Part shown: positions 1,494 to 27,710 of the stretch, in pieces
Layout of the letters: the number at the start of each line of letters is the position of its first letter
Numbering within the stretch: the first letter of the stretch is position 1
Assembly: GCA_963575745.1 (NCBI GenBank)
Contig: CAUYUJ010006335.1
Span: forward strand, 64,001-128,000
DNA length: 64,000 nt
Source of the DNA: Prorocentrum cordatum
Taxonomy: Eukaryota; Sar; Dinophyceae; Prorocentrales; Prorocentraceae
Direction: 5' to 3'
Program-made: the position numbers and the translations under genes
Notes under the pieces: model-generated
Told to the model about the DNA's origin: nothing
The model's input: only the letters and a program-made list of their open reading frames with translations
Databases searched by the model: none

Positions 1494-2463
1494 ATGTCTT
1501 CGTTTGCATGCAAATCGCACGCAGGCATCATCGGGCAAGAGAATACGCAGTGGACCAGAGAGTGTGGGTCAGAGGAGCTGGCAGTATCCATATATATTAT
1601 CATACGGCACTATGTGGTGGCAGGTTGTGGTTCCATCATACAGAGCTTTCTTCGACATGTGGCAGAATATATTATGCACATATAACAAAACAAAGATCTT
1701 TGAGTATTTTGTTCAGAATTGGAAAGGGATCGCTATCCAGAGTACGCCGCCAGAGGGGATTGGACAGGATGGGCTTGCACAAAGTGAAAAAGAGGCCGTG
1801 AAGATGGCCAAGCGTTTGGCTACGATCAATGAAAGACAAACCGTTTGGGACATCATCAGCCCTGGGTTTGCAGTTGAAATGAGAGGGGACAGCATGTTAG
1901 TACACTCATGGTTGACGGGGCGATGGCGGTGTCACAACAACAAACAATATCAACGCCGTATTGATCATTGTATTGACGTTATGGAACGAACCGCGCATGA
2001 GTTGGGGATTAGATGTTCAGGGCTGGGGGGAGATCTGTACAAACATGAATATAGGGAGGATAACACACGGGCTGACGAGCTTACACACCTGGCCCGCGAG
2101 GGCCATTGCTTCTACAATGAGTATGAATACAGATTCAATTTTGAAAGCTATCTTCAACCTATCGCCTGTCGTGGTGCCTTCGACGGGGGAGTGTGCAGCA
2201 AAGGGACGGGATGCGGGTTCTGGCTTCTGATCGGGCTTTTGAATCTCGATTACGATTGTAATAAGAGTACTCCTTATTCCCCTCTTCCTTCCTCCTCTCC
2301 TTATTCTGTGCCCTCCAATACTCCCCTCGTTTGGAGGGACGTGTGCGAAGCCGCGTGGTGCCTTGAGGAAGGTGCTGCGATAACCGACGCCGAGCTCAGT
2401 GCTGCTGAGGCGCTCTCAAGCGCTGTTGTGCATTTGGCACGACAGATCCTCGCCGCCAGCTGA
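1456..2463 (+). pseudogene. LINE family A ORF2 C-terminus with permuted RNase H domain
   Basis: This is the continuation of the RT frame after a frameshift near 1488-1493. Similarity to the copy at 24934-27171 switches frame here (shared motif around GQRSWQYPY). The C-terminal part is RNase H-like. The motifs in order are RGDSMLVHSWLTG (Asp 1888-1890), YREDNTRADELTHLAR (Asp 2074-2076), RGAFDGGV (Asp 2182-2184) and TDAELSAAEAL (Glu 2392-2394). In ordinary RNase H the DGG and Glu motifs come first, so the order here is circularly permuted. The ORF ends with TGA at 2461-2463, just before the A-rich tail. The apparent start at 1456 is in the overlapping frame and is not expected to be used. Confidence 0.75.
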
Positions 2464-9603: not shown

Positions 9604-10093
9604 GTTGGGCAGAGCTTACCTCCTGCTCAGCCTGGCCTCACCGCTGGGGTCCCCCTCGTCTCGAGCTGCATTGTGCAGAAAGGAGTCTTTGGTTCCTCAT
9701 ACTGTACACGGTGCTTCAGTGTCTGTTTTGCCTGAGTACCGTACACGTTCATTGATTGTCGGAGTGCGCATTGACTGTTCAGATTGTCGGAGTACCGTGC
9801 GCTTTCATTGAGTGTCGAAGGCCTGTGCACATTCTTTGTGGTAGCCTACGAGTACCGTACACACTCATTCTTTGCTTGACTCAGATTCCCGCACGCGTGC
9901 TGCAGAGTGTCTTTTGCCTGAGTACCGTACACACTCTTTGGAGGTCGAGTTTGACATCTGTTCAACACTCTTGTGAGGACATCTGTTCGACACGACGACA
10001 GATTCTAAGCGTTCGCGTGAGGACATCAATTTCTTGGAACAGTGGGGGTTTCCAGAGGAGCTCAAGTATTCGAACACCGTCACCTTCGCAGCG
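9604..10093 (+). promoter_or_regulatory. LINE B 5' UTR with GAGTACCGTAC repeats
   Basis: A motif GAGTACCGTACAC(A/G)(C/T)TC recurs near 9734, 9790 (degenerate), 9850 and 9920, spaced 56-70 bp. CATCTGTTC(A/G)ACAC occurs twice near 9954-9990. Repeated 5' monomers are typical of LINE internal promoters. The same block (GGTGCTTCAGTGTCTG to GTACCGTACAC) recurs near 20775-20815 in the deleted chimeric element. The promoter role is inferred. Confidence 0.5.
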
Positions 10094-11170
10094 ATGTCTC
10101 AGCAACACCCAGCAGGTGCGCCCTGTTGTAAGAAGAGTAAGGCTGTGGGTGAGGATGAGGATATGATTCAGGCAAGCAGTGAGGAGGAGGAGCAGTTCGG
10201 CGAATTTGATGACGGCAATCCTATGAAGCAACAGTTTGCTATGATGAAGGCTATGCTAGCTAAACAGAACACTCAGAAGAAAAGAATTTCACGGATTGAG
10301 CAGGATGTGAAACGGATCGACCAGCGTGGTGAGAAGAATGAGGCTGACATTGCTGCTATGCAGCAGCAGATCCGCTCGCTTCAGCAGAAGGGTCCACCCA
10401 GTGATGCAGGATCAGGGTCCACGGATGCTTGGAGTAACTATGCGGGCCCTGCGGGCTCCTCTGCTACGGCCACTGCTCCCAGGTATGGTAATCGTACGCC
10501 AATTCGCGAATGGAATCGAGTGCGGGAGGATTTTACACCGACCTTCATCCAACTCACAGGTTGGGCGCGAGGTGGAGTCGGCAATCTCAAGACTCGTTCA
10601 TCGGATATGCTCTCCTGGGATCATGCCCTGCCTGTCATTCGTAAATTTGTCCGTGGCACAGGAAAGATGACTGAGGAGCATTTCGACATGAGTAGGATCG
10701 AGCGGGAGCACAAAAATAAACCATATGGTCTTTATCGTATACGATTCTATGTTATAAGTGGCAAGTTGACGAACGATGAAATTTGGGAGATACGCAACTC
10801 TTGGGCCGTCGAGCTTGAGAATGACACGCACGACTTGAAGCAAGTCACTCCCATCCTGGCCAACAAGCGTCTCGGCGTATCCTGTGAACCAGCACCCTGG
10901 AAGCAGCCACATGTTTCTGCCGTGGGTCGTTGTCAAGCTATCTTTGCTACTCTCAGGAGTGGATCCCAGTGGCTGAAGGGTGAGATGGGTCCTCCTGTCA
11001 GCTATGTGTGGGGCTACCCTTCGGCCACGACGCCGAAGACGGATGGAGTATGCATTGCCGTGTTTGATCCTAACTTGGGGTGGAAGGTTGACGCCGAGCT
11101 GCTGCGTAAGGTCGATGACAAGTTGGATTGCGAGGTCTTTCTGGCCAAGCTCAACTTTCGTACCTGGTGA
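10094..11170 (+). CDS. LINE family B ORF1 protein
   Basis: The protein is 358 aa from the ATG at 10094 (MSQQHPAG). The frame is open further upstream, but only from a TTG at 10034. It has an acidic Glu/Asp-rich stretch at residues 20-40, a Met/Gln/Lys-rich probable coiled coil at 44-98 (MKQQFAMMKAML to MQQQIRSLQQ), a Gly/Ser/Ala linker, and a mixed globular C-terminal half of about 200 aa. I see no CCHC knuckle. By position it should be the RNA-binding, multimerising ORF1 product. The C-terminal fold is not recognised. The TGA stop at 11168-11170 lies in the same frame as ORF2. Confidence 0.65.
   Translation: MSQQHPAGAPCCKKSKAVGEDEDMIQASSEEEEQFGEFDDGNPMKQQFAMMKAMLAKQNTQKKRISRIEQDVKRIDQRGEKNEADIAAMQQQIRSLQQKGPPSDAGSGSTDAWSNYAGPAGSSATATAPRYGNRTPIREWNRVREDFTPTFIQLTGWARGGVGNLKTRSSDMLSWDHALPVIRKFVRGTGKMTEEHFDMSRIEREHKNKPYGLYRIRFYVISGKLTNDEIWEIRNSWAVELENDTHDLKQVTPILANKRLGVSCEPAPWKQPHVSAVGRCQAIFATLRSGSQWLKGEMGPPVSYVWGYPSATTPKTDGVCIAVFDPNLGWKVDAELLRKVDDKLDCEVFLAKLNFRTW
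11168..11170 (+). promoter_or_regulatory. In-frame UGA between ORF1 and ORF2 (candidate recoding site)
   Basis: ORF1 and ORF2 share one frame and are separated only by TGG-TGA-AGG. The only nearby AUG (11178, good context) is in another frame and stops within ten codons. Readthrough, re-initiation on a non-AUG codon, or a recent nonsense mutation would each explain this. Confidence 0.4.
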
Positions 11171-14100
11171 AGGTGCCATGGCGCCATCGTGGGCACGTAT
11201 AACGTGAGGCGCTGTGGCAGCATGAACAGCCACGACATGCTTGCTCAGATCAAGACCTCGAATTCGGAAGTTCTCGCTTTGCAGGAGTGCCAGTTCCTTG
11301 GAATAGGTAGGTGCTCTGAGCATGGTTTCACCTTAACTCTTTCTAATGATGGGAAGGCCGGGGTTCTCTACAAGAGGGTGTGGAGAGCCTCCATACGTGA
11401 ATGCATCAGGGGTAATCGTTATGTCATTCTCGTGTTTCAATCGTTGATTGTTGCCAGCTTGTACTTACCACATGCGCCGAAAAAAGGGGATCACAATATC
11501 TTATTCACACAAACATTGCAGTCGTTTCGAAAGGATTTGGATACGCTCCGAGTTAGGTTTCCCAAGGAAGGGTGGGACTTGTTCATCGGGATGGATGCTA
11601 ACGTTGAGCTTCTGCCTCACACGGTATTTGGAGATGTTGCTTTGACTGGTTCTGCAGTGCAGGGTGAGAGATTTGAAGAAGGGGACAATGCAGGAGGAGG
11701 TGGACGTGGAGGTTTCCAGCAGGGTAGGAGGAGGATGCAACAATACATGTGTGACGAGCTCTGTGAATGTATGTGGCATTATGATTTGGTTTTCTCGAAT
11801 TCTTTTGGGACCCGTCGTACGACCTGGAAGGCCAGGGAGGAGACGGAGGAGGAGGACAAGGTTCTTGATTACCTGTGTATTCCGAGCTCCTGGGAAAGGC
11901 CTCAGTGGGAGGTGTCGTGGTTAAGGCCAACACTCAGGGGCTCCGTGGACCCCAGAAAGACCCGCCTGTCGGACCATGCCCTGCTCACCTTGCTTGTCCC
12001 CGAATCGGCCGCTCCGACTCGACGTTGGAGAACGAAGCCACGACAAACGTTCACTCATTGGTGCTGCGACGAAGCCTCGGAATTGCAAGTTTCGGCTAAC
12101 CTTGATCGTCGTTTGCATGCTGCAGCTCGTTACCCATCTGGTCTCTGCCCGGATGAATTGGCTCCTGTTATCTTGAATGCATGTACACAGGACAAGGAGT
12201 CATACACCAATGTCCCAAAGAAAATGCAGATCCCCAAAAAGACAGATCGTCATAAGGAACTTGATGATGAATATCGCCGACTGCGTCGTGAAGGAGGGGA
12301 GGAGGAGGAGCTCATCAGGGTTAAGAAAGAGAGAAGGAAGGAGATGCGTGCACACACTCGTCGTCGACTCGAATACGATCATCGTGACGGGAAGCTCGCT
12401 CGGACGGTGGTGGACAAATTGAGTTATGACGATGTGCTCACGGAGGATAGGGAGTTGTGGGAGAAGGCGCTCTATGCTCACGGGTTCGCCAAGTACCACT
12501 GTGCTGCGCAAGGGATACGTAACGTGGAGTGTATCGAGGAGAGGAGGAGGAGGAGGTTGCAGGACACGAACACAGTGGACGTCTCCCCCATTTCCATGTC
12601 CGTATTGTTACAGGCACGATCACGCTTAAAGTGTGGTAAGGCGGTGGGTAAGGACGGAGTTTCTCCTTCTATGTTGAAACGTATCACGTGGGTAGGTTTG
12701 CGTCATATTCTTCGGTTATTCCAAGACCTGTATCTTCAACGGTATCCTACTCCTCGGATTTGGTCTGAGTTGCTTGTGGTGTTGATGCCGAAAGCTAAAG
12801 ATATCACTAAGTTGTCTGATACTCGTGCTCTCGTCTTACTTAGCAGCCTAAGCAAATGGTATACTTCATGTTTGGTTGAGATTGCTGAAGGTTATCTGAA
12901 AAGGGTCCCACAATATCTACATAACTACGGATTTTGCAAGGGAAGGCGCACGCACGAGATCACTGCCATGCTTAAGCATGCCACCACACACGCTCTGGAG
13001 TGGGGGAAAGATGAGACCCTGCACCTCGCGTCATTAGATGTGCAGACTGCCTTTGATAACGTCACGGTTGAGAAGGCCAGTCGGGCCTTGGATGCCATCC
13101 CTGGGTTCCCCAATGACCTTGCGTTGGCGCTACTCGCTCCCAGTATCCTGGACACAGCGGACTTTACCTTTCAGGACTCCACGGCGACGGGTATTCCCTG
13201 GGATGCATGTGTACGTACTGGTAGTGTGGAGGCCCCCTTCCTGTGGAAGTGTGTGACACTACTGATGTGGGATAGGATTGTACTGAATTGGGAGGAGGAG
13301 AAGTTGGGGTACGATTTGGGGGTGGAGGCTGGTGGGAGGTATCTTACTCATGCGCTCTGGGCCGATAACATTTTGCTTTTCTCGAAATCAAAGACTGAGC
13401 TCACACGTATGGTGGGGGACTTCTCGGCTCAGCTGTATACGCACGGTTTCAGATGGAAAGATTCCTCACTACACTATCTTGCCTTTGGGGAGGACTCTGA
13501 AGGCGCCTCGACGGGGAACCTCGTTGTCCAGGTGAACGATCTCGGTACCCTGTGTCTTCCGCGATGCTCTGAAATGGAGTGCCTGGGTTGCCTGGTCACG
13601 ACCAAGACTGACAAACACCATGATGTGGCTTGGAAATTGGCTCGGGGTTGGAAGCGATTTAACCAGTTCCGCAAGTTTTATACGAATCGTGCTGTACCCT
13701 TCCAGAAGAAAATCAAGCATTATGAATCTAGGTTGCGTAGTTTTGTACTTTTCGGTGTTGAAGGCATGCCAGCGGACCACCACACTTTGAAACAGTTGCA
13801 CACGTGGGAAGGTAAAATATTGTGTTCTATGGTACGCCGCCCGAAACCTGCCGACATGGATTGGAGTATATACTTATGCAACTTGTACAAACGTGGGCGG
13901 CGTATGCTCCTGGAATTGGGACGGCCGTCTCTTGTGCAGCTATTCTTGTTTCGTCAGTGGCAGTGGGCTCAGGACTGTACGTTTACTGTGAAACGCCTGA
14001 ACCCAACACCCGCACAGATTCCTCCAGGTACTTTTGATTCTTCAGGCAAGCCTGGCCCCAACGTCTTTGCTGCGTGTGAGCCACCGCCGGCCAAGAGACA

Positions 14101-15349
14101 ACGTCAGGATGAACCCATGTATGTGCTACCAAGTATTGCGTGCTCGACATCAATGGGATGTCATCCTGACGTGTGTGAGACGATGCATGCTGTTGATTCC
14201 TTTGAGCTCCCTGGTTCTCAGACACAATTACCCGCGCATCGGCGCAATCTGATTTCCCAGATGCATAAGCGTGCAAAGACATTCCATCCATCTCAGGATT
14301 CTCTGTCGCAAAAGCGTTCCTCTGTTGAGTTGCCGTCGCAGGAAATCGCTGCAAACAAGCGGCGACGGGTGGCTCCACCTCAGCATCGTAGTACAGGGGA
14401 CTCGCATATGCAGGCTAGAGAATGTATTTTTGCATGGTCGGGGGAGTGGACTGACCGACGGCAGGCCTTCATTGCATCGCTGCCTTGGAAAGAACGCCCA
14501 TTAATGACGCGTCGGCATGAGGGGGGGAGACCACTGGCGTTGAGAAACTTCCATTACATTTTCGAGTTGGTATCAGGGAAGGATTGGTATCACACGTTAT
14601 CCTTTTCACGTCAGGGATGGAAAGAATTTCTGAAGCGGGCACTGGATGTTACTAACATGGAGGAGGCGTGGGGGTACTGTTACTTTAAACATGCACAACC
14701 TGCGGGATATGCTAGGGAGGAGGAGGAGAGGGAGAAGACGGAGGAGCAGCAAAGGAAGGAGGACGAGAAGATGGAGAAACGACTTGCGTACATTAATGAA
14801 CATGCATCGGAGTGGAATGCGGAGCCTCGGGACTCGATACCGATGGAATTGATTGGGGACTCCGCCACAGGGGTGAATTGGATTAACGGTCTCTGGGCAA
14901 CATCCAATATTATCTACAAGCACATTCTTGGCGACATTCAAAATAGGCTGGAGCATATCTCTGTGTTGTATGGTATGAGGCCTCCGAGTTGGGGCCACAA
15001 TATGTTCAGGTGGATCTATCGAGAAGGAAACGAAAGAGCTGACAGGCTGACATGGTTGGCCAGAACCAAAAATAGTTACGTTACGTTCCATACCTCACTT
15101 ATTGAACATGCGAGTAAAACAAAACTAGACGGCCTCCGTGGATTCTTCGACGGAGGTCGCTCTGTGGAGGGATGTGCTGCAGGATGGTGTATAGATTTGT
15201 GTGTACACGGGACGTGGCAGTTGGTGGCGGAGGAAGCTGTCTCGCTTGATGCCTCTGCTTCTGTCATGTTTTGTGAGATGATTGCAGCACAACGGCTCTG
15301 TATGGCCGTGGAGCACATTTTGGGTAGCATCTTTCATCCAAGCAGCTGA
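11171..15349 (+). CDS. LINE family B ORF2: APE endonuclease, reverse transcriptase, permuted RNase H
   Basis: This enzyme should nick target DNA, prime cDNA synthesis from the nick and degrade the RNA template. The frame is open from 11171. Numbering starts at the GTG of 11189, and no AUG precedes the first catalytic motif. APE domain about 1-270: TYN (N5), QE (E33), Y92, GMDAN (D136, N138), TTW, LDY and SDH (D262, H263). RT about 480-830: GKAVGKDG, LMPKAKD, GFCKGRRT, LASLDVQTAFD (D617), RTGSVEAPF, HALWADN (D726, N727), GFRWKDSS and ECLGCLV. A basic linker follows. RNase H: GDS (D1224), NERAD (D1285), FFDGG (D1321) and FCEMIAAQ (E1363), an order permuted relative to canonical RNase H. Translation probably needs UGA readthrough or re-initiation after ORF1. 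Confidence 0.88.
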   Translation, partial: RCHGAIVGTYNVRRCGSMNSHDMLAQIKTSNSEVLALQECQFLGIGRCSEHGFTLTLSNDGKAGVLYKRVWRASIRECIRGNRYVILVFQSLIVASLYLPHAPKKGDHNILFTQTLQSFRKDLDTLRVRFPKEGWDLFIGMDANVELLPHTVFGDVALTGSAVQGERFEEGDNAGGGGRGGFQQGRRRMQQYMCDELCECMWHYDLVFSNSFGTRRTTWKAREETEEEDKVLDYLCIPSSWERPQWEVSWLRPTLRGSVDPRKTRLSDHALLTLLVPESAAPTRRWRTKPRQTFTHWCCDEASELQVSANLDRRLHAAARYPSGLCPDELAPVILNACTQDKESYTNVPKKMQIPKKTDRHKELDDEYRRLRREGGEEEELIRVKKERRKEMRAHTRRRLEYDHRDGKLARTVVDKLSYDDVLTEDRELWEKALYAHGFAKYHCAAQGIRNVECIEERRRRRLQDTNTVDVSPISMSVLLQARSRLKCGKAVGKDGVSPSMLKRITWVGLRHILRLFQDLYLQRYPTPRIWSELLVVLMPKAKDITKLSDTRALVLLSSLSKWYTSCLVEIAEGYLKRVPQYLHNYGFCKGRRTHEITAMLKHATTHALEWGKDETLHLASLDVQTAFDNVTVEKASRALDAIPGFPNDLALALLAPSILDTADFTFQDSTATGIPWDACVRTGSVEAPFLWKCVTLLMWDRIVLNWEEEKLGYDLGVEAGGRYLTHALWADNILLFSKSKTELTRMVGDFSAQLYTHGFRWKDSSLHYLAFGEDSEGASTGNLVVQVNDLGTLCLPRCSEMECLGCLVTTKTDKHHDVAWKLARGWKRFNQFRKFYTNRAVPFQKKIKHYESRLRSFVLFGVEGMPADHHTLKQLHTWEGKILCSMVRRPKPADMDWSIYLCNLYKRGRRMLLELGRPSLVQLFLFRQWQWAQDCTFTVKRLNPTPAQIPPGTFDSSGKPGPNVFAACEPPPAKRQRQDEPMYVLPSIACSTSMGCHPDVCETMHAVDSFELPGSQTQLPAHRRNLISQMHKRAKTFHPSQDSLSQKRSSVELPSQEIAANKRRRVAPPQHRSTGDSHMQARECIFAWSGEWTDRRQAFIASLPWKERPLMTRRHEGGRPLALRNFHYIFELVSGKDWYHTLSFSRQGWKEFLKRALDVTNMEEAWGYCYFKHAQPAGYAREEEEREKTEEQQRKEDEKMEKRLAYINEHASEWNAEPRDSIPMELIGDSATGVNWINGLWATSNIIYKHILGDIQNRLEHISVLYGMRPPSWGHNMFRWIYREGNERADRLTWLARTKNSYVTFHTSLIEHASKTKLDGLRGFFDGGRSVEGCAAGWCIDLCVHGTWQLVAEEAVSLDASASVMFCEMIAAQRLCMAVEHILGSIFHPSS

Positions 15350-15573
15350 CTCATTTCATCTTGCTTGGAGCTCTCCAACACCTTTACATTTTCACATGTT
15401 GTATTGCATCCTTTTCCTTGTTCCTGCATCCTATTCCGTTGCCTATGCCTCAGTGGCTCGGCAGTGTGATGATAAGAGTTGCCCTCTCCAGCTACCCTGT
15501 GCTCCGTTTGGGAGTCTTAGGGCTCAGCTGTCACAGCTGTCCGCGCCCTGACTCAAACTCAAACTCAAAAACC
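15350..15573 (+). other. LINE B 3' UTR and tail
   Basis: About 220 bp from the ORF2 stop to a tail with three CTCAAA-type units and then AACC. The duplicate copy (18727-18944) has one unit fewer, a microsatellite-like difference. Confidence 0.7.
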
Positions 15574-15584
15574 AAAGTCCCACA

Positions 15585-18500
15585 CAATGTCCCAAAGAAA
15601 ATGCAGATCCCCAAAAAGACAGATCGTCATAAGGAACTTGATGATGAATATCGCCGACTGCGTCGTGAAGGAGGGGAGGAGGAGGAGCTCATCAGGGTTA
15701 AGAAAGAGAGAAGGAAGGAGATGCGTGCACACACTCGTCGTCGACTCGAATACGATCATCGTGACGGGAAGCTCGCTCGGACGGTGGTGGACAAATTGAG
15801 TTATGACGATGTGCTCACGGAGGATAGGGAGTTGTGGGAGAAGGCGCTCTATGCTCACGGGTTCGCCAAGTACCACTGTGCTGCGCAAGGGATACGTAAC
15901 GTGGAGTGTATCGAGGAGAGGAGGAGGAGGAGGTTGCAGGACACGAACACAGTGGACGTCTCCCCCATTTCCATGTCCGTATTGTTACAGGCACGATCAC
16001 GCTTAAAGTGTGGTAAGGCGGTGGGTAAGGACGGAGTTTCTCCTTCTATGTTGAAACGTATCACGTGGGTAGGTTTGCGTCATATTCTTCGGTTATTCCA
16101 AGACCTGTATCTTCAACGGTATCCTACTCCTCGGATTTGGTCTGAGTTGCTTGTGGTGTTGATGCCGAAAGCTAAAGATATCACTAAGTTGTCTGATACT
16201 CGTGCTCTCGTCTTACTTAGCAGCCTAAGCAAATGGTATACTTCATGTTTGGTTGAGATTGCTGAAGGTTATCTGAAAAGGGTCCCACAATATCTACATA
16301 ACTACGGATTTTGCAAGGGAAGGCGCACGCACGAGATCACTGCCATGCTTAAGCATGCCACCACACACGCTCTGGAGTGGGGGAAAGATGAGACCCTGCA
16401 CCTCGCGTCATTAGATGTGCAGACTGCCTTTGATAACGTCACGGTTGAGAAGGCCAGTCGGGCCTTGGATGCCATCCCTGGGTTCCCCAATGACCTTGCG
16501 TTGGCGCTACTCGCTCCCAGTATCCTGGACACAGCGGACTTTACCTTTCAGGACTCCACGGCGACGGGTATTCCCTGGGATGCATGTGTACGTACTGGTA
16601 GTGTGGAGGCCCCCTTCCTGTGGAAGTGTGTGACACTACTGATGTGGGATAGGATTGTACTGAATTGGGAGGAGGAGAAGTTGGGGTACGATTTGGGGGT
16701 GGAGGCTGGTGGGAGGTATCTTACTCATGCGCTCTGGGCCGATAACATTTTGCTTTTCTCGAAATCAAAGACTGAGCTCACACGTATGGTGGGGGACTTC
16801 TCGGCTCAGCTGTATACGCACGGTTTCAGATGGAAAGATTCCTCACTACACTATCTTGCCTTTGGGGAGGACTCTGAAGGCGCCTCGACGGGGAACCTCG
16901 TTGTCCAGGTGAACGATCTCGGTACCCTGTGTCTTCCGCGATGCTCTGAAATGGAGTGCCTGGGTTGCCTGGTCACGACCAAGACTGACAAACACCATGA
17001 TGTGGCTTGGAAATTGGCTCGGGGTTGGAAGCGATTTAACCAGTTCCGCAAGTTTTATACGAATCGTGCTGTACCCTTCCAGAAGAAAATCAAGCATTAT
17101 GAATCTAGGTTGCGTAGTTTTGTACTTTTCGGTGTTGAAGGCATGCCAGCGGACCACCACACTTTGAAACAGTTGCACACGTGGGAAGGTAAAATATTGT
17201 GTTCTATGGTACGCCGCCCGAAACCTGCCGACATGGATTGGAGTATATACTTATGCAACTTGTACAAACGTGGGCGGCGTATGCTCCTGGAATTGGGACG
17301 GCCGTCTCTTGTGCAGCTATTCTTGTTTCGTCAGTGGCAGTGGGCTCAGGACTGTACGTTTACTGTGAAACGCCTGAACCCAACACCCGCACAGATTCCT
17401 CCAGGTACTTTTGATTCTTCAGGCAAGCCTGGCCCCAACGTCTTTGCTGCGTGTGAGCCACCGCCGGCCAAGAGACAACGTCAGGATGAACCCATGTATG
17501 TGCTACCAAGTATTGCGTGCTCGACATCAATGGGATGTCATCCTGACGTGTGTGAGACGATGCATGCTGTTGATTCCTTTGAGCTCCCTGGTTCTCAGAC
17601 ACAATTACCCGCGCATCGGCGCAATCTGATTTCCCAGATGCATAAGCGTGCAAAGACATTCCATCCATCTCAGGATTCTCTGTCGCAAAAGCGTTCCTCT
17701 GTTGAGTTGCCGTCGCAGGAAATCGCTGCAAACAAGCGGCGACGGGTGGCTCCACCTCAGCATCGTAGTACAGGGGACTCGCATATGCAGGCTAGAGAAT
17801 GTATTTTTGCATGGTCGGGGGAGTGGACTGACCGACGGCAGGCCTTCATTGCATCGCTGCCTTGGAAAGAACGCCCATTAATGACGCGTCGGCATGAGGG
17901 GGGGAGACCACTGGCGTTGAGAAACTTCCATTACATTTTCGAGTTGGTATCAGGGAAGGATTGGTATCACACGTTATCCTTTTCACGTCAGGGATGGAAA
18001 GAATTTCTGAAGCGGGCACTGGATGTTACTAACATGGAGGAGGCGTGGGGGTACTGTTACTTTAAACATGCACAACCTGCGGGATATGCTAGGGAGGAGG
18101 AGGAGAGGGAGAAGACGGAGGAGCAGCAAAGGAAGGAGGACGAGAAGATGGAGAAACGACTTGCGTACATTAATGAACATGCATCGGAGTGGAATGCGGA
18201 GCCTCGGGACTCGATACCGATGGAATTGATTGGGGACTCCGCCACAGGGGTGAATTGGATTAACGGTCTCTGGGCAACATCCAATATTATCTACAAGCAC
18301 ATTCTTGGCGACATTCAAAATAGGCTGGAGCATATCTCTGTGTTGTATGGTATGAGGCCTCCGAGTTGGGGCCACAATATGTTCAAGTGGATCTATCGAG
18401 AAGGAAACGAAAGAGCTGACAGGCTGACATGGTTGGCCAGAACCAAAAATAGTTACGTTACGTTCCATACCTCACTTATTGAACATGCGAGTAAAACAAA

Positions 18501-18726
18501 ACTAGACGGCCTCCGTGGATTCTTCGACGGAGGTCGCTCTGTGGAGGGATGTGCTGCAGGATGGTGTATAGATTTGTGTGTACACGGGACGTGGCAGTTG
18601 GTGGCGGAGGAAGCTGTCTCGCTTGATGCCTCTGCTTCTGTCATGTTTTGTGAGATGATTGCAGCACAACGGCTCTGTATGGCCGTGGAGCACATTTTGG
18701 GTAGCATCTTTCATCCAAGCAGCTGA
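15585..18726 (+). pseudogene. LINE B ORF2, N-terminally truncated
   Basis: It lacks ORF1 and the whole APE domain and starts in the linker at the PKKMQIPKK motif. RT (ALWADN at 16738-16755) and the permuted RNase H are intact and open to the stop at 18724-18726. The frame also runs open backwards through the preceding 3' UTR to 15361, but that start (TTG) is not credible. Confidence 0.8.
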
Positions 18727-26380: not shown

Positions 26381-27150
26381 AGTTGGAGCTCCACCCAGTT
26401 CGAGGCCAAGCAGTCCACCGAGGGAACGACTCCTGAGGCCCTTGAGAAACAGTCCAAGCGTTTGGCCACTATATGTCAGCGTGCTACGGTTTGGGACGTC
26501 TTGAGCGAGGGGATAGGCGTGGACCTCCACGGGGACTCACTACTGGTCTCATCGTGGCTCCAAGGGAAGTGGAGGTGCCATAATCAGGTTTATGCCGACA
26601 GAGTTGTGGAACGTGTGGAGACCATGTACGAGCTGAGCTGCCGCGCGAACATCCGCGCGGCGAACATAGGACGGGACATATATCGACATGAGTACAGGGA
26701 GGATAACACCAGGGCCGACGAGCTCACCCACCTGGCCCGAGAGGGCCGCACTTTCTACTCCAATCAGGTTGCATGCAGTCCGATTGAGTCACAATATCTG
26801 ATACACGTCGCCTATCGTGGGGCATACGATGGGGGAGTGGGCGGCAACGGTTGCGGATGTGGTTTTTGGCTGCAGAAAGGCTTCTTGGATTACAGTCAGT
26901 GGGGTCCGACCTACCACGCCACTCCTTCTCCATTCGGCTCTCGTCAGATAGCCCGCAGGAGGGCCCCAGGGGGTGAGCCACGTGATGCCTTCGTTTGGAG
27001 GGACATCGCCTCCAGTGCCTTTCTTTTACCACCGCGCTCCACGATCACAGATTGTGAACTGGCTGCCGCCGAGGCGCTCACACGCGCCCTCCGCTTAGAC
27101 CTGCTAGGCTCGCTAGGCGCCCAGTCGGGCGGCGCTGCGGACAGCGCCCT
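26380..27150 (+). pseudogene. LINE family A permuted RNase H domain
   Basis: SKRLATICQRATVWD leads into HGDSLLVSSWLQG (Asp 26534-26536), YREDNTRADELTHLAREG (Asp 26717-26719), YRGAYDGGV (Asp 26828-26830) and TDCELAAAEAL (Glu 27056-27058). The permuted order and all four acidic residues match copy 1 and family B. Confidence 0.78.
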
Positions 27151-27171
27151 GGAGCCCGCGCAAACCCAAAA

Positions 27172-27197
27172 AACCAAGGTTGACGGCTTACCGCCGG
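27172..27197 (+). repeat. 3' half of target stem-loop, split by LINE A copy 2
   Basis: AACCA, then AGGTTGACGGC and the arm TTACCGCCGG (27188-27197). Confidence 0.75.
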
Positions 27198-27710
27198 CTC
27201 CCAGTGGGAGCAATCGTCGGCCGTCAGGATGCATTTTTTCAGATGACAATGGTCTCGTGAACTGAAATCAAGCAGAGAGCGAGCTATACGCTGCCCCCGT
27301 ATTTCTGCACCTGTAGTAGGCCATGGCGCGTCGAGCTGTCGAATTCTCAGGTCCGTAGCTGTAGAATTACCTCGTGGAGCTCTTCGACGAGATGAGCTGA
27401 GAGGAATTCGGGCGCGGGGTGGAGCTAGTTGGTCGACCCAGCCAGAACGGGCAATCTGGTGACCTGGGGTCGGTTTTTCGAAGATCTGAGAGATTTGAAA
27501 ATTCGTTTTGAGAATTCAGATTTTTGTTCTGGTGTAATCTCAGGGCTGTAGGTGCAGTATTTCGATCAAAACATTTGGAGGAACCGACGTCCTATAGAAC
27601 TCAAGAAATACATTGTACGAGTTTTATACCTGAAATTGGGAAACGCTTTTTTCGCGTGATCTGGGTGCTCATTTGCGTGGTCAGAGCTCTACGAGGGTCC
27701 GGGTGGTAGC
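27198..27710 (+). repeat. Type I repeat unit with CTCGTGGAGCTC insertion
   Basis: It contains TTTCTGCACCTGTAG, the ~62 bp insertion unit at 27369-27431, TTGGTCGACCCAGCC, and ends GAGCTCTACGAGGG. It finishes with a diverged 5' arm CCGGGTGGTA at 27699-27708, split by the next insertion. Confidence 0.6.

Follow-up and report, generated by a model that had tools for sequence, protein, structure and literature searches.

Domain architecture of a family B LINE

The window analysed here comprises 64,000 nucleotides of the genome of the dinoflagellate Prorocentrum cordatum (assembly GCA_963575745.1, contig CAUYUJ010006335.1, positions 64,001 to 128,000 of the forward strand) and carries copies of long interspersed nuclear elements (LINEs) of two families, A and B; all features described below lie on its + strand. 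The second open reading frame (ORF2) of the long family B copy occupies 11171..15349 (1392 amino acids, stop to stop) and combines an N-terminus that is endonuclease-like by inspection only, a reverse transcriptase (RT), a linker and a C-terminal domain that is very probably a circularly permuted, otherwise ordinary RNase H of type I (RVT_3-like). A Pfam scan of ORF2 from family B and from subfamily A2 detected an RT of the RVT_1 type, as for a LINE. The RT core of family B spans 12815..13453 (37.8 bits, cut-off 29.6) and has the active-site box WADN instead of YxDD. Motifs of an APE-type endonuclease before the RT were visible by inspection only, with no Pfam match in family B (E ≤ 5) or A2 (E ≤ 1).

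The putative RNase H domain makes up roughly the last 200 residues of the family B ORF2 (14741..15346 including a leading helix; model residues 77-278). Its first part in the chain (14837..15064) corresponds to the C-terminal half of an ordinary RNase H, β4-αB-αC/D-β5-αE, and contains the Asp of a GDS motif (14858-14860) and the Asp of NERAD (15041-15043). The second part (15125..15334) corresponds to the N-terminal half, β1-β2-β3-αA, with the Asp of FFDGG (15149-15151) and the Glu of FCEM (15275-15277). The chain order of the four carboxylates is therefore D, D, D, E and not the D, E, D, D of RNase H type I and RVT_3. A first-pass annotation of this DNA had described this order, and all four motifs were found where it had placed them, with GDS and AD before DGG and E; its residue numbers (D1224, D1285, D1321 and E1363) pointed to the right residues but run 6 below the stop-to-stop numbering, in which they are D1230, D1291, D1327 and E1369. 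The same motif order was present in a 5'-truncated family B copy (15328..18726; motifs at 18235-18654, 99% identical over 140 amino acids) and, as had also been proposed, in two family A copies of moderate similarity. These are copy 1 at 1783..2460 (GDS Asp at 1888, Glu of TDAELS ending at 2394) and copy 2, assigned to group A3, at 26432..27262, which has a C-terminal tail (GDS Asp at 26534, Glu of TDCELA ending at 27058); they are 27% and 26% identical to family B.

Profile comparison with the halves in native and restored order

Searched against the PDB, a profile of 21 permuted rows in native order gave RNase HI as its first five matches, each confined to the latter half of the chain (best match 3u3g, E 0.0089, chain 70-134). 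Native (A6) and re-permuted (A5) order were then compared on identical pieces of 12 rows, the re-permuted pieces having their halves restored to the ordinary order. The best PDB match improved from E 9.8e-4 (chain 71-134) to E 5.1e-5 (chain 47-134), and Pfam RVT_3 matches at E ≤ 1 rose from 6 of the 12 rows (best E 0.0034) to 10 (best E 1.2e-5). For the family B piece the RVT_3 score rose from 14.8 to 18.2 bits and the match widened from profile positions 65-119 to 14-119. The RVT_3 cut-off of 21.6 bits was not reached natively, family B scoring 12.8 bits over half of the profile; after re-permutation, rows other than family B scored up to 25.6 bits. By comparison, RNase H domains of ordinary order in this genome reached Pfam scores of 50.7 and 76.7 bits.

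We also used hhalign to align the permuted profile to one built from 22 RNase H domains of ordinary order, all from this genome and many of them close copies. The native profile scored 54.1 over 55 columns, with a non-collinear second match of 27.0 over 20 columns. The re-permuted profile scored 70.4 over 117 columns, from DGG to AD, with the four catalytic motifs in register. When the columns of the moved half were shuffled 300 times, no shuffle reached the re-permuted score of 70.36 (mean 54.4, standard deviation 0.9, maximum 62.5), and reversal of the moved half gave 54.4. When the profile was rotated in steps of 7 columns, cuts that fell between the AD motif and the DGG motif gave scores of 69.0-70.9, compared with 57.8 and 64.9 one step outside this interval. 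From this peak, the old chain termini map to the interval from AD to DGG, and the new termini fall behind the Glu helix and ahead of the GDS strand.

Predicted structure

AlphaFold2 models of the family B and group F domains, which represent two distant families, had a mean predicted local distance difference test score of 83.7 and 79.5, respectively, and showed the same element order with high local confidence. Every strand and helix of the RNase H fold (β1-3, αA, β4, αB-D, β5 and αE) was listed for both models, in permuted order. The first-pass annotation had proposed structure prediction as a check, and at the level of listed elements, their order and per-residue confidence the models fit a permuted RNase H. 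VIA-align, a structure search that depends on chain order, listed solved RNase H structures over the first part of the domain only. In Foldseek, RNase HI was absent among the best 50 matches; endonuclease V, an RNase H-like fold, appeared at ranks 34 and 47 (E 0.19-0.24). These structure searches show neither absence nor novelty.

Distribution and conservation in the genome

The genome searched comprised 4,128,499,153 bases (4.13 Gb). A 140-residue stretch of family B gave 5071 candidate places, of which 150 were scored; every match extended at least over residues 2-139 of the query and was collinear with it. A stop lay inside the match at 3 of these 150 places, and an open frame of exactly 1392 amino acids was present at 39. 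The family A search (150 of 5566 candidates scored) included subfamily A2, which is about 80% identical and often has a 1445-amino-acid frame, and the search with a third group, C (123 of 5453 scored), led to groups with frames of 1412 and 1420 amino acids. The genome contains at least nine groups with swapped order (A/A2, A3, B, C, D, E, F, G and H). Identity among permuted domains was 23-48% in the comparisons made: 26-36% to family B across the region for genome rows of other groups, and 47-48% for F versus G and H. These searches uphold the earlier view that the order is not a local rearrangement.

The claim that all four carboxylates are kept was likewise supported: the three Asp were present in 20/21, 21/21 and 21/21 rows and the Glu in 19/20, among 21 hand-chosen rows of which one is truncated. 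The rows were drawn from the 37 distinct frames of one search, frames of the other searches and the window; they omit, among others, L045 (with Val in place of the GDS Asp), L058 (Gly at this position and a diverged C-terminus), L061 and L064 (diverged C-terminus) and most near-identical A and B copies. Decayed copies with an altered first Asp do occur (L045, L051 and L058). Of the 20 rows measured, 18 had a distance of 61 residues between the two Asp of the first part, the exceptions being P0019 (62) and P0018 (66). The linker from the AD Asp to the DGG Asp was nearly constant at 36-39 residues. Between A and A2, the ratio of nonsynonymous to synonymous substitution rates (dN/dS) was 0.069 for RNase H, 0.046 for RT and 0.093 for the endonuclease region, rough values given a dS of 1.9-2.8 and no computable dS in 3 of the 7 stretches tried.

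In a protein collection, two region searches with the full ORF2 found no relatives at E ≤ 0.001, and P0005 as the query found six relatives, all shorter proteins. Viral contigs gave 168 pattern matches and no relatives.

Ordinary-order RNase H in ORF2 and in related elements

The first-pass annotation had named a second, ordinary-order RNase H in the same ORF as evidence against a permutation. Pfam showed RT only in ORF2 of B and A2, and an ordinary-order profile found no complete RNase H elsewhere in ORF2. The ordinary first-half profile gave a single match in these two ORFs, at A2 1414-1425 (E 2), and missed family B's own first half, so a stray first half could escape detection. The idea that an upstream KRLA helix is a remnant of a first αA was not supported: the native profile gave separate local matches without a confident upstream extension.

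Two related pairs of sequences, L065/L067 (G000:C20461) and L066/L068 (G000:C13927), likewise combine an endonuclease-like part with an RT, whose box is WSDN, and L065 has a weak Pfam endonuclease match below the cut-off (E 0.00099). Their RNase H is of ordinary order and lies just before the RVT_1 core, whereas that of the permuted LINEs is C-terminal. In both pairs it is situated between a stretch resembling the first RT motif, identified by eye, and the RVT_1 core, and so seems to be nested within the RT. The ordinary domains L084-L087, which carry DSLL(V/L)...QWRC or VWRC, gave top or near-top phmmer scores with several family A-like rows; judged from these similarities, they are a possible source lineage.

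Interpretation and alternatives

We interpret the C-terminus of ORF2 as a permuted RNase H because the profiles align through all four motifs only after the halves are restored to the ordinary order, and because diverged groups retain both the order and the four carboxylates. Several results weigh against this. The best Foldseek and VIA-align matches were other folds. The first-pass annotation had suggested searching with each half separately: in the native profile the first part of the chain matched only the second half of RNase H, and a profile of the second part, the moved half, gave two matches in the PDB, neither of them an RNase H. In one Pfam set, 5 of the 6 matching re-permuted rows started at profile positions 31-36, and in these 5 the gain is, on the extent of the matches, one of the Glu helix and not of the DGG strand. 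Single-sequence phmmer comparisons with ordinary domains differed little between orders and were hence uninformative, and in a Pfam scan of single domains with their flanks, five in each order, RVT_3 was matched by the N-half of the domain only, in 3 of 5 both natively and after re-permutation; the gain from re-permutation was seen with trimmed pieces and with profiles, unlike with flanked single sequences. The structure searches and the moved half that goes unrecognized in the PDB are also what would favour some other α/β domain with look-alike motifs, a reading that we consider highly improbable. That the order is an assembly or rearrangement artefact of single copies is almost certainly wrong: the window does contain tandem and broken copies, but the collinear match was obtained at all scored family B places and the same order recurs in many diverged groups, often within one long open frame.

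Two further explanations accept an RNase H and differ as to its state. In a segment-swapped dimer, the C-terminal half in one ORF2 would complete the N-terminal half in another; the linker of 36-39 residues makes such swapping possible, and a dimeric mode of action has been proposed for some non-LTR (non-long terminal repeat) RTs. We regard this as quite unlikely, since the linker length is nearly constant and the prediction of both parts in one chain had high confidence, a point that weighs little because that confidence is per residue. A catalytically dead remnant, kept for RNA binding or structure, would accord with an RNase H activity that is predicted only and with an RT that already deviates from YxDD. 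It is very unlikely given that few columns are as well conserved as those of the four carboxylates and that the dN/dS of the RNase H is near that of the RT.

Under the preferred reading of a permuted RNase H, the ordinary chain ends, before β1 and after αE, would be joined by the linker, with new ends between αA and β4. Profile collinearity and the predicted elements suggest that the fold is kept together with its four-carboxylate, two-metal site. The domain is most likely the element's own RNase H and is predicted to be active. Once the RT has made its copy of the element RNA at the nicked target, the domain would cut the RNA in the RNA:DNA hybrid, and removal of the RNA would let the second DNA strand be made; this is the role generally ascribed to LINE RNase H domains. 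The permutation probably arose once, in a common ancestor, through duplication of the domain and subsequent loss of the outer halves; no remnant of these was seen with the native profile extended upstream.

Organization of ORF2 and the RT active site

The frame upstream of the family B ORF2 (9977..11170, 397 amino acids; ORF1 by position) ends in a TGA at 11168-11170 and is in the same frame as ORF2. In both B (window 11168-11200) and A2 (L048, just before 690), a single stop alone separates the two frames. In family B the endonuclease-like TYNVRR motif is located upstream of the first ATG in ORF2, an arrangement that points to read-through of the stop or to initiation at a codon other than ATG. 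The 5'-truncated family B copy lies directly behind the long copy, is nearly identical to it in protein and resembles a tandem of the 3' part.

The RT box was [WK]ADN or WSDN and not YxDD in the seven sequences inspected (B at window 13367-13369, P0004, P0020, P0010, P0011, L067 and L068; five by a script seeking DN only, two by eye), the second Asp being replaced by Asn. It read WADN in B, A and A2, KADN in A3 and WSDN in the ordinary-order relatives. The matching change in the Ty1 RT, D211N, is described as abolishing transposition, with second-site suppressor changes in the Ty1 RNase H restoring 5-10% of it (PMC2148107). By analogy, these elements might form a dinoflagellate LINE superclade founded on an active permuted RNase H that co-evolved with an RT lacking the second Asp of YxDD and helps to offset the weakened RT. 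We consider this unlikely; the relatives with ordinary-order RNase H also have Asn in the RT box, which counts against a link between RNase H and RT.

Comparison with known systems

At least one earlier account of a permuted RNase H-like domain exists. The CIRPIN preprint of 2025 (PMC12667903) describes a permuted pair of such domains among predicted structures, likewise a circular permutation, and names no protein, host or retroelement in the passages concerned; its main text contains 'retrotransposon' and 'reverse transcriptase' 0 times. The 2014 classification of the RNase H-like superfamily by Majorek (PMC3985635) lists the RNase H of non-LTR elements as cluster E.7, and its main text has no word beginning with 'permut'. 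A review of dinoflagellate genomes (PMC11453091) uses the term 'RNase H' 0 times, and where 'circularly permuted' occurs in PMC5408684 it is applied to a scaffold. No permuted RNase H in a retroelement was present among the literature matches listed, part of the search having concerned dinoflagellate elements generally. Within the literature searched, a permuted RNase H as part of LINEs thus appears to be new.

The permuted domain is common to many lineages with at least hundreds of copies, and nature may therefore already have tested the tolerance of RNase H for new ends between αA and β4. Core catalytic domains of mobile-element proteins seem rarely to be circularly permuted in nature. The permutation also explains why the domain has been missed in annotation: profile and structure searches that depend on chain order detect no more than half of it, and the number of RNase H domains in the LINEs of dinoflagellates and other protists may accordingly be underestimated.

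In LINEs of the I, R1 and Tad clades and in some plant L1 elements, RNase H follows the RT at the C-terminus of ORF2. The permuted LINEs share this position and differ in that the order in those clades is, as far as is known, ordinary. The closest comparison is with RVT_3 (PF13456), the plant- and archaeal-type RNase H of LINEs and host proteins, which has the same four motifs, DGG, E.xA, GDS and RExN.xAD, and predicted elements in common with the permuted domain. Spacing within the halves is 61 and 42 residues in family B and mostly 50 and 40 in the ordinary domains of the genome (17 of 22 measured; L074 and L084 differ). Some permuted groups have an insert before the Glu helix, the Asp-Glu distance of 42 in family B reaching 81 in P0018. 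Relative to RVT_3, the permuted domain would thus have its halves swapped, its old ends joined and its new ends between αA and β4.
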